Position numbers and translations under genes: made by a program
Part shown: positions 3,598 through 12,109 of the stretch, piece by piece
How the letters are laid out: every line of letters starts with the position of its first letter
How positions within the stretch are numbered: position 1 is the first letter of the stretch
Notes under the pieces: model-generated
The model's input: the letters and a program-made list of their open reading frames with translations, nothing else
The model's database searches: none
What the model was told of the DNA's origin: nothing
Assembly: GCA_029265355.1 (NCBI GenBank)
Contig: JAJUJL010000003.1
Coordinates: 248,001-312,000, forward strand
Reading direction: 5' to 3'
DNA length: 64,000 nucleotides
Source: Chloroflexota bacterium
GTDB lineage: Bacteria > Chloroflexota > Anaerolineae > Anaerolineales > UBA4823

Positions 3598-4170
3598 ATG
3601 GGGGAGCTGCGCTGCCTGGCTTTCTACAAACCCTTTGAAGTGCTCTGCCAATTCACCGATTCACAGGGGCGCCGAACACTCAAAGATTTCATCCCCATCG
3701 CCGGAATCTACCCGGCTGGCAGGTTGGACTACCGCAGCGAGGGACTGTTGCTTCTCAGCGATGATGGCGATTTGCTGCACCGACTCACCGATCCCGATTT
3801 TGAACACCCGAAAACCTACCTCGTCCAGCTCGAAGGCGTCATTGACGAACAGGCTGTTCATCGTTTGAACCGAGAAATCGTCCTGCCAGGGTTGCAAACC
3901 AAGTTGATCCAGGCCGAGGCAATTTCCCAACCCGATGTCCCCCCTCGCCCAGTGCGGGCTTACCATCCCAGCTCGTGGCTGCGCATCGTACTGAAGGAGG
4001 GCAAAAAGCACCAGGTGCGGCGCATGACGGCTGCTGTCGGGTATCCAACACTCAGGTTGATCCGGGTAGCGATCGGTCCGATCACCCTTGGCGGGTTGAA
4101 ACCCGGTGACTACCGTTGGCTGGGAAAGGATGAAATTGCGCGCCTGAAATCGATTAGAATCAGGCCATGA
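3598..4170 (+). CDS. pseudouridine synthase, RsuA/RluE type
   Basis: Converts a specific uridine of ribosomal RNA to pseudouridine. The 190-residue protein lacks an N-terminal S4 domain, as RluE does (RluE modifies 23S rRNA). The catalytic motif GRLDYRSEGLLLLS is present at about residues 41-54 with the essential aspartate, and the KEGKKHQVRRM motif follows near residue 137. Start ATG at 3598, six bases after the deacetylase gene. The stop overlaps the start of the RNA cyclase gene by four bases (ATGA), suggesting coupled translation and a shared RNA-processing theme. Target uridine not deducible from sequence alone. Confidence 0.88.
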   Translation: MGELRCLAFYKPFEVLCQFTDSQGRRTLKDFIPIAGIYPAGRLDYRSEGLLLLSDDGDLLHRLTDPDFEHPKTYLVQLEGVIDEQAVHRLNREIVLPGLQTKLIQAEAISQPDVPPRPVRAYHPSSWLRIVLKEGKKHQVRRMTAAVGYPTLRLIRVAIGPITLGGLKPGDYRWLGKDEIARLKSIRIRP

Positions 4171-5216
4171 TCCAAATCAATGGTGCATTGGGCGAGGGTG
4201 GTGGTCAGGTATTGCGCACTGCGCTCACTCTATCAATACTGACTCAACAGGCAGTTCGAATATCCAACATTCGCCTACGCCGTCCAAAACCTGGTTTGCA
4301 AGCCCAGCATCTGGCGTGCGTAGATGCTGCCGCCAGCATCAGCCGCGCCACCGTGGAAGGCGCATCGCGCGAGTCGACGAAACTGGTATTCCAACCCGGA
4401 AAAATTCGCACCGGAAGGTTTCACTTTGAAATCAATACTGCCGGATCAGCTTGCCTGGTTCTGCAAACCATTTTTTTACCGCTCAGCCTGGCAGGCAGCA
4501 CTTCGACGGTCTCGATTTCTGGCGGCACACACGTACCCTGGTCGCCTTCTTATCATTACCTCGCTTATCAATGGCTGCCGGTGCTGACCTGGATGGGTTT
4601 TTCCGCCGAGATAAACCTGCAACAAGCTGGTTTTTATCCTCGTGGTGGGGGCGTGATCCGGGCTACCCTACATCCATGCCATCGAATTCAACCCCTACAG
4701 GCAGATGAGCCTCTCAAAACTGCCCAGATCGAGGGCATTTCTATGGTATCGAACCTGGAAAAAAGCATCGCTGAGCGTCAAAAGCGCCAGGCAACATTGA
4801 GACTTCTGCCGCATTTTGCCAGTATCCGAATAAAGATAGCTGAGATTCCAGCCGCCTCACCAGGCACACATCTGTTGCTAAAAGCTGTGTCACACTCTGC
4901 GGATGGTCCCCCTCTGGGCGGTTGCTATTCATCCCTTGGACAGCGCGGCAAACCCGCCGAGCGCGTCGCAGATGAGGCTGTTGATCCGATCATCAACTAC
5001 GTGCAATCCGGCGCCAGTGTAGATCGCTTTCTGGCCGATCAAATCCTACTGCCCCTCGCATTGGCAAAATCCCCATCCTGGTTTACAACGGATGCCATTA
5101 CCACTCACTTGCTCACCAATGCCGAGGTCATTCGCGCGTTCCTTCCTGTACAGATCAATATCGAAGGCCAGATGGATTCTCCTGGGCGCGTATCGCTTCA
5201 GCCCCCAGCCTCTTAG
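4167..5216 (+). CDS. rtcA: RNA 3'-terminal phosphate cyclase
   Basis: ATP-dependent enzyme that converts an RNA 3'-phosphate to a 2',3'-cyclic phosphate, an end-healing step before ligation. The N-terminus carries the family signature GEGGGQVLRTALTLS, and the C-terminal region has the conserved THLLTNAEVI segment whose histidine is the nucleotide-accepting residue in E. coli RtcA. At 349 residues it is full length. In many bacteria rtcA sits with the RNA ligase rtcB under RtcR; neither is present here. Instead it is coupled upstream to a pseudouridine synthase (4-base overlap) and abuts the DNA polymerase IV gene. Confidence 0.92.
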   Translation: MIQINGALGEGGGQVLRTALTLSILTQQAVRISNIRLRRPKPGLQAQHLACVDAAASISRATVEGASRESTKLVFQPGKIRTGRFHFEINTAGSACLVLQTIFLPLSLAGSTSTVSISGGTHVPWSPSYHYLAYQWLPVLTWMGFSAEINLQQAGFYPRGGGVIRATLHPCHRIQPLQADEPLKTAQIEGISMVSNLEKSIAERQKRQATLRLLPHFASIRIKIAEIPAASPGTHLLLKAVSHSADGPPLGGCYSSLGQRGKPAERVADEAVDPIINYVQSGASVDRFLADQILLPLALAKSPSWFTTDAITTHLLTNAEVIRAFLPVQINIEGQMDSPGRVSLQPPAS

Positions 5217-10772: not shown

Positions 10773-11039
10773 ATGGAAACCGAAAGAACCTTTACTATTT
10801 CCGAATTGCGCCGCTTCGATGGCGAGCGCGGACCGATGTACATTGCCTGCGATGGCATCGTTTACGATGTGACGGATTGTTACCGTTGGCGCACAGGGCT
10901 GCACGAGATGCTTCACTTCCCAGGGCAGGATCTGAGCCACGAGTTGGTCAACGCGCCTCATGACGGCGAGGTATTCTTGCATCCATGCGTCAAGATCATT
11001 GGCCGCTTGATTTCGCCGATTTCCAGAAATGAAGAATAA
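10773..11039 (+). CDS. mini cytochrome-b5-like heme/steroid-binding protein
   Basis: Small 88-residue soluble protein of the COG4892-type cytochrome b5 group: the b5 core is recognisable in MYIACDGIVYDVTDC, then LHFPGQDLSHELVNAPHD. H48 and H63, framing the GQDL turn, are the expected axial heme ligands. The family is found in anaerobes; its redox partner is generally unknown. It lies 15 bases after the exporter permease and 17 bases before the gyrase-pinwheel gene, and may be co-transcribed with both. There is no membrane anchor. Confidence 0.8.
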   Translation: METERTFTISELRRFDGERGPMYIACDGIVYDVTDCYRWRTGLHEMLHFPGQDLSHELVNAPHDGEVFLHPCVKIIGRLISPISRNEE

Positions 11040-11056: not shown

Positions 11057-12109
11057 ATGAAAAGACCTGATCTCTCATCCACTACTCCAGAAATCCAGGC
11101 TTACATTCTTGCCCTGGAGGAAGAACTGGAAAAATTAAAATCTTCGCAAAAAACACAGGAAGAACCCTACCCAACCGCGCCTTTAGAGCCCGATGAGCCA
11201 CCGACCACAATGGGTGTGATCACTGCCACCCGCAGTGGCATTGCCAAACGCACCCTGCGACACGTCTATTCACGCCAGCGCCGCGGCGGGATGGGCATCT
11301 TCGATTTAGAAACCTCCGAAAATGACCCGCCGGCGATGCTGTGCATTGCCGACCAAGATCAGAGCTTGCTCTTGATCACCAATCTGGGTCGCGCCTTCCG
11401 CCTGCCCGTCAGCGCCGTGCCCGAGGCGCCACTACGCGCCCGCGGTAAATCCATCCTGGGAAAGATCAACCTGAACGATGGAGAGCATCTGGCGCTGATG
11501 TTACCAGTGCAGGCGCAAGGCTACCTGGCAGTTCTGAGCAAAACCGGCATGCTGCGCACGCTGCGGCACCACATTTTTGGCGAATACATGAAACCTGGCA
11601 CGCCGCTGTATGATTACCGGTCTTTTGGCGAAGTTGCTTCCGCCTGCTGGACGCCCGGTGACGCCGATTTGTTGCTCGCTTCCATCGCTGGCAAAGCCAT
11701 TCGCTTCTCTGAAAAGCTGGTGCCGCCGCAGGGTTGCCTGGGCATCCGGCTGAGCGATGGGGATCAGGCCGTTGCTGTAACTTACACCTACCCGGATAGC
11801 AATATTTTATTGATTGGGGCAGACGGAAAGGGTACACGGCGCAGCATGAACACCTTCGCCGCCAATAAAGCCCCCGGTTCGGGCGGAAAAATCGCCTTCT
11901 CCACCGAGCATCTGCTGGCTGCTCTGAACGCTGACGGTATCGACGATGTCTTTATTATTTCCAGGCTCAGCAAGATCATCCGTTTCAAAGCCGAAGAGAT
12001 CCCCGTCAAGGATGGCGTGGTTCAAGGCGTCATCTGCATGAGTTTCCGCGCTGACGAAGCCAGCGCCGTGACAGTCAGCTACCGAACAGCAGCAATCAAT
12101 ATCGCCTAA
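11057..12109 (+). CDS. stand-alone gyrase-A C-terminal-domain-like beta-pinwheel protein
   Basis: A 350-residue protein without any topoisomerase catalytic domain. Residues 12-32 form a short charged helix likely to coil, followed by a Pro-rich linker (36-49). From about residue 52 to the end it matches the six-bladed DNA-wrapping pinwheel of gyrase subunit A, including a near-perfect gyrase box, QRRGGMG at 74-80 (consensus QRRGGKG). In gyrase this domain wraps DNA and gives the enzyme its ability to supercoil negatively. As a separate protein it could act in trans on a gyrase or topoisomerase IV lacking this domain, or as a DNA-bending protein; both are inferences. ATG 11057 has no strong ribosome site. 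Confidence 0.82.
   Translation: MKRPDLSSTTPEIQAYILALEEELEKLKSSQKTQEEPYPTAPLEPDEPPTTMGVITATRSGIAKRTLRHVYSRQRRGGMGIFDLETSENDPPAMLCIADQDQSLLLITNLGRAFRLPVSAVPEAPLRARGKSILGKINLNDGEHLALMLPVQAQGYLAVLSKTGMLRTLRHHIFGEYMKPGTPLYDYRSFGEVASACWTPGDADLLLASIAGKAIRFSEKLVPPQGCLGIRLSDGDQAVAVTYTYPDSNILLIGADGKGTRRSMNTFAANKAPGSGGKIAFSTEHLLAALNADGIDDVFIISRLSKIIRFKAEEIPVKDGVVQGVICMSFRADEASAVTVSYRTAAINIA

Follow-up and report, generated by a model that had tools for sequence, protein, structure and literature searches.

A free-standing gyrase A C-terminal pinwheel, encoded by its own conserved gene in Chloroflexota, as a candidate DNA-bending chromosomal protein

The window analysed here, a stretch of 64,000 nucleotides from a member of the Anaerolineales (Chloroflexota), carries on its forward strand, at 11057–12109, an ORF that starts with ATG and, stop codon included, encodes a protein of 350 aa. 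By its translation and its Pfam and NCBIfam matches, this is a stand-alone protein resembling the C-terminal domain (CTD) of the gyrase subunit GyrA, and we refer to it as the orphan. The local gene order is an ABC transporter, a cytochrome-b5-like ORF of 88 aa (10773–11039, forward strand), a gap of 17 bases, the orphan and then an ORF with a metallo-beta-lactamase fold. A promoter and terminator scan at the orphan gave counts near the shuffle mean, and no stable hairpin was found at its 3′ end.

Pfam assigns the protein to the DNA gyrase C-terminal beta-propeller family (PF03989; E 1.8e-21, 75.7 bits against a cut-off of 27, in four stretches), and no other Pfam domain rose above cut-off, two further names appearing at E 0.02 and 0.3. 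NCBIfam GyrA models were matched in their C-terminal part only (model positions 498–791 of 798, E 2.4e-37) and scored the orphan at 128 bits, against 54 bits or less for the ParC models; in a phmmer search of solved structures, GyrA CTDs ranked first. The catalytic core with its active-site tyrosine, by which a GyrA is recognized, is absent, the GyrA models matching only from position 498. An AlphaFold2 model built with 13 aligned relatives (pLDDT 88.0, pTM 0.81) shows a helix at residues 11–32 (11087–11152, forward strand; assigned by DSSP on the model and by conservation in 57 relatives), a low-confidence linker at residues 33–50 (11153–11206; pLDDT below 50 at residues 31–39) and a six-bladed beta-pinwheel at residues 51–342 (11207–12082), whose ring is closed by pairing of the last strand (335–341) with the first (52–67). 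Both Foldseek and VIA-align group the model with GyrA CTDs. The best VIA-align match was 1suu (Z 36.4, rmsd 2.0 over 280 residues), listed as ‘Structure of DNA gyrase A C-terminal domain’, which we take to be the domain from Borrelia burgdorferi. All 17 structural rows at Z 16 or more were GyrA or ParC C-terminal domains, the first unrelated row stood at Z 4.9, and no fold other than GyrA/ParC-type domains was found above Z 5 in these searches. With the ORF, the Pfam and NCBIfam matches, the model and the drop in structural score all in agreement, the pinwheel assignment is far beyond chance. A prior sequence-only reading of this DNA, which described a 350-residue protein made up of the six-bladed domain and a short N-terminal helix with no catalytic core, is borne out.

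The helix is conserved together with the residues just before it, in the motif RPDL...(V/I)..YIE.LE.E(L/I)..L: R3 and P4 are each present in 56/58 relatives, Y16 and L20 in 57/57, and E21 in 56/57. Hydrophobic residues occupy positions 13, 17 and 20 in 57 of 57 relatives, position 24 in 55 and position 27 in 45, and this 4-3-4-3 spacing fits a short coiled coil. Dimerization through the helix had been suggested from the single sequence; the heptad pattern behind that suggestion proves to be conserved, while for the pairing itself we infer from this pattern that two copies may associate. A hunch that the RPDL...YIE.LE motif would be common to other proteins of the same genome was rejected, since a search of that genome returned the orphan at E 1.8e-15 and the next match only at 0.555.

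Residues 74–80 (11276–11296, forward strand) form a modified gyrase box, QRRGGMG, identified from the sequence and from an alignment of 58 relatives. The GyrA box consensus is given as Q(R/K)RGG(R/K)G (PMC9348778), from which the orphan departs at position 6. To compare residues, 58 distinct orphans were aligned with 27 GyrA proteins of the order and with Escherichia coli GyrA. The box core is firmly conserved among the orphans: Q, the second R and the last G are present in all 58, and the first R is found in 49/58. Position 6, normally basic, is Met in 55/58 orphans against R or K in 27/27 GyrA; GyrA of this order, for its part, deviates from the consensus at position 2. The near match to the gyrase box that had been noted from the sequence is therefore real, with position 6 as its exception.

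The rim of the wheel differs more extensively from that of gyrase. Arginines R615/R617, R665/R667 and R712 of E. coli GyrA contact wrapped DNA and were mutated in one study (PMC11626157). A basic counterpart (Arg or Lys) of R667, R712, R766 and R817 is missing in 58/58 orphans, whereas Arg occupies positions 667, 712, 716 and 766 in 27/27 GyrA of the order and position 817 in 26/27. In the blade-4 loop (residues 219–229; 11711–11743, forward strand), alignment with GyrA shows a gap of five residues in 58/58 orphans, with the loss of two loop arginines that are R in 27/27 GyrA. The alignment may shift by one or two residues in loops, and a basic residue does lie one or two positions from the lost arginines in blade 3 (27/58 orphans), blade 5 (58/58) and blade 6 (50/58); in blade 2, R127 (50/58) adjoins the lost R612. 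Relative to GyrA, the loops of blades 2 and 5 retain their charge and those of blades 1 and 3 have slightly less; the mean number of Lys and Arg falls to 1.34 from 2.33 in the blade-4 loop and to 0.88 from 2.41 in the blade-6 loop. New basic positions have also been gained: R68, R73, R127, K258, R262, K278, K306 and K318 are each present in 50–58 of the 58 orphans and in 0/27 GyrA, R115 is likewise fixed in orphans and found in 0/27 GyrA, and R331 occurs in 58/58 orphans against 4/27 GyrA. These residues cluster in blades 5, 6, 1 and 2, which are neighbours in the ring, and in the alignment of relatives blade 6 carries a new, strongly conserved stretch, GVVQGV.CM.LR.D. With the box core conserved, gyrase arginines lost and new basic residues fixed, much of the bending loop appears to have been kept and the binding rim rebuilt. 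In Bacillus subtilis, the box is reported to be required for DNA bending and dispensable for binding (PMC3510516). DNA binding by the orphan is plausible on these sequence grounds, but gyrase-like wrapping cannot be assumed, as box position 6 is changed in nearly all relatives and several of the wrapping arginines are missing.

The genome encodes a complete gyrase and topoisomerase IV besides the orphan. Three of its ORFs have PF03989 matches. Six of these fall in an 831-aa frame on contig C58 and three in a 976-aa frame on C6, and the orphan, on C46, accounts for the other two. GyrA itself (822 aa, six PF03989 matches, box QGRGGRG) is encoded on a different contig from the orphan, and ParC (972 aa) has propeller matches of its own and lacks the box. 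With six blades and a box of its own, this GyrA lacks no tail; the suggestion that the orphan complements a tail-less GyrA or ParC in trans finds no support, and we rejected it as a candidate function. Of the 13 orphan-bearing genomes in the single-sequence search described below, 12 likewise yielded a GyrA with a box; from the thirteenth (G020), ParC alone was fetched. The ParC of this genome (C6; locus L052, 2311–5229) ends in a C-terminal extension well over 100 residues long, in which Lys, Ala, Ser and Pro abound and which looks histone-H1-like by eye; ParC ORFs are long in several relatives too, reaching 1027 aa.

Stand-alone relatives are spread through the class. A single-sequence search of 61 genomes (the genome itself and its relatives) found the free form in 13, nearly all remaining matches lying in long GyrA/ParC-type frames. 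A profile search of 400 genomes of the order gave matches at E up to 1e-40 in 34, which frame length and score resolve into 25 stand-alone genes (one partial), two fragments (100 and 165 aa) and seven GyrA-length frames. In the same class of Chloroflexota, taken to be Anaerolineae, 67/396 genomes matched at E up to 1e-60, all in frames of 211–472 aa. In a draw from the phylum, 1/400 genomes matched at E up to 1e-60, namely the orphan's own, a figure that alone is no proof of restriction to the class, as the draw overlaps in part with that order and class. A single-sequence search of contigs returned three loci, including a distant match in Bacteroidota. Five genomes of two families (G777, G806, G870, G876 and G906, in f115 and f139) encode more divergent stand-alone pinwheels (E about 1e-88 to 1e-97), and in this subgroup the profile match begins at position 7–14. 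At one further locus (L091, genome G341), the pinwheel lies inside a much longer open frame of 556 aa, within which the profile match reports one TGA.

A tree of 61 CTDs resolves three clades, made up of 24 orphans (support 100/100), ten ParC (100/99) and 27 GyrA (87/50), and the orphans do not group with ParC of the same genomes. The orphans thus have a single-clade origin and, by their model scores, probably descend from a GyrA-like CTD; we claim no particular GyrA lineage as the source, given the length of the orphan stem (2.52) and a warning from the tree program that long branches meet. Over 66 genome pairs, mean identity was 51% for orphans and 58% for the corresponding GyrA CTDs, the orphan being at least as similar as the GyrA CTD in five. 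Values of dN/dS for the orphan were 0.08, 0.05, 0.10, 0.26 and 0.25 in five of seven pairs, the other two being undefined through saturation; the values are rough, since dS exceeded 2 in three of the five, and on these codon comparisons the gene is under purifying selection.

The gene has no constant company. No family other than the orphan is common to all 44 loci read; the next most frequent are ABC-type ATPases, in 13/44 loci at scattered positions, and no conserved partner gene is indicated. The cytochrome-b5-like gene lies directly upstream in 3/44 loci only, so it is probably not part of the system. A role in defence was also considered and rejected, PADLOC giving no match.

The closest known parallel is Gac of B. 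burgdorferi, a GyrA CTD made as a separate protein, which wraps DNA, can substitute for some features of HU and acts as a repressor of ospC (PMC10127594). Gac is expressed from a promoter and start site within gyrA and therefore has the same sequence as the gyrase tail; according to its authors, whether such a separate protein is unique to that species is not known (PMC10127594). Like Gac, the orphan is a free GyrA-type pinwheel with no catalytic core, present beside a complete gyrase, and 1suu is its closest solved fold. Unlike Gac, it has a gene of its own on another contig than gyrA, belongs to a distinct clade, and carries an extra conserved helix and remodelled basic positions. With the CTD of gyrase it shares the six-bladed pinwheel, the box core QRRGG.G and alignment over the whole domain, differing in the missing catalytic core, the Met at box position 6, the absent wrapping arginines of blades 3–6 and the shorter blade-4 loop. 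The ParC CTD has a related pinwheel fold (Z 16–24), but the box is missing from ParC in these genomes, and the tree places ParC apart from the orphans. In the open-licence literature we found no description of a dedicated stand-alone GyrA-CTD gene family, Gac being the only free GyrA wheel found there.

The nucleoid proteins of these genomes bear on the comparison. HU is near-universal in bacteria and its absence is unusual. A search for HU/IHF (PF00216), which resembles the orphan in proposed role only and is unrelated in fold, detected no match in 36/37 genomes of the family, this genome included; the same search was positive in 9/14 control genomes. A YbaB/EbfC gene is present in this genome. 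Across the class, any HU match was seen in 9/67 orphan-bearing against 90/329 other genomes (p 0.019), and a strong match (E up to 1e-10) in 2/67 against 63/329 (p 0.0004). Counted per genus, the p values were 0.062 for all HU and 0.020 for strong HU, and among 61 near relatives there was no difference (HU in 2/13 orphan-bearing against 11/48 other genomes, p 0.72). Many genomes lack both the orphan and HU. Replacement of HU by the orphan is thus suggested at the level of the class but not among near relatives, and the anti-association is a hint, because the counts are uncorrected for the tree and confounded by clade.

Any account of function starts from the established fold, free-standing state, conservation and single-clade origin of the protein, alongside a complete gyrase and topoisomerase IV. 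The reading we favour, to which we give about an even chance and which leans on the analogy with Gac, is that the orphan may be a DNA-bending nucleoid-associated or regulatory protein of the Gac kind, encoded by its own gene. A DNA-wrapping nucleoid role was one of the two offered by the sequence-only reading, and of these it is the better supported. The pinwheel would bind DNA along part of its rim, at blades 5-6-1-2, where the conserved basic residues gather, and would bend it through the box loop. The N-terminal heptad helix would pair two wheels, so that two stretches of DNA could be bent or bridged, and the protein would act in nucleoid organization or regulation, in the manner of Gac, in a lineage often without HU. 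Several observations stand against this reading: the absent gyrase arginines with the lower loop charge of blades 4 and 6, the near-neutral charge of the whole protein, unlike that of typical histone-like proteins (net 0 and pI 7.0, with pI 5.6–8.8 across 12 relatives), and the clade-confounded HU anti-association, weaker per genus and absent among near relatives. Residues 53–350 taken alone have a pI of 9.2. More tentative, and in our view rather doubtful, is a bolder version set across much of one Chloroflexota class: there, a duplicate of the DNA-wrapping gyrase wheel would have separated from the enzyme, acquired a dimerizing helix and evolved into an independent chromosomal protein that bends DNA and does some of the work of HU.

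Two other functions are unlikely but deserve weight. In one, the orphan would modulate gyrase or topoisomerase IV, the free wheel competing with the GyrA tail for DNA or docking on the GyrA/GyrB core and so tuning supercoiling; the GyrA-like descent, with its higher score from GyrA than from ParC models, the largely retained box and the full GyrA of nearly all genomes checked would suit such a role, but GyrA has no missing tail for it to supply and no gene partner is conserved across the 44 loci. The other, to which we give a similarly small share, is that a former DNA wheel has lost wrapping and become a protein-binding scaffold or sequence-specific regulator. The universal loss of wrapping arginines, the five-residue deletion in blade 4, a more acidic blade-6 loop, the near-neutral charge and the new conserved stretch of blade 6 all point that way; the box core retained in every orphan, the newly fixed basic positions and, again, the lack of a conserved gene partner argue against it.

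Carriage by a mobile element or phage is very improbable. The orphan is patchily present within families (7/37 genomes in family f1), as such an origin might produce, but an alignment search found no relatives in viral contigs, and an integrase-like neighbour, in clusters read by eye, was seen in one family only. No phage or plasmid match reached 60% identity (23–31% among the matches listed), and the annotated ones are topoisomerase genes; one (H11), annotated as a separate beta-propeller protein, adjoins gyrB in a stretch called gyrA in other strains. A decaying fragment, or a full gyrA split by assembly or frameshift, has nothing in its favour beyond the missing core and is refuted by the orphan's own start codon and unique N-terminal helix, the intact gyrA on another contig, the class-wide conservation and the purifying selection, leaving it a negligible chance.

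Borrelia is not alone in having a free GyrA wheel, and the presence of one in a distant phylum, with a dedicated and conserved gene, is relevant to the wider question raised by Gac. The orphan suggests that a former enzyme part has become a chromosome-organizing or regulatory protein in its own right, and it offers a natural system for separating the effect of the wheel on DNA from that of gyrase. If it proves to be a nucleoid protein, it would be an example of enzyme parts recruited as chromosome organizers where HU is not found.

Two features of the neighbourhood are recorded as minor observations. The 88-aa ORF at 10773–11039 is a free-standing cytochrome-b5-like heme/steroid-binding domain. 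An ORF at 4167–5216 of the window, presumably an RNA 3′-phosphate cyclase by its motif, lies seven genes upstream of the orphan here and directly upstream of it in two relatives (loci L042 and L043).
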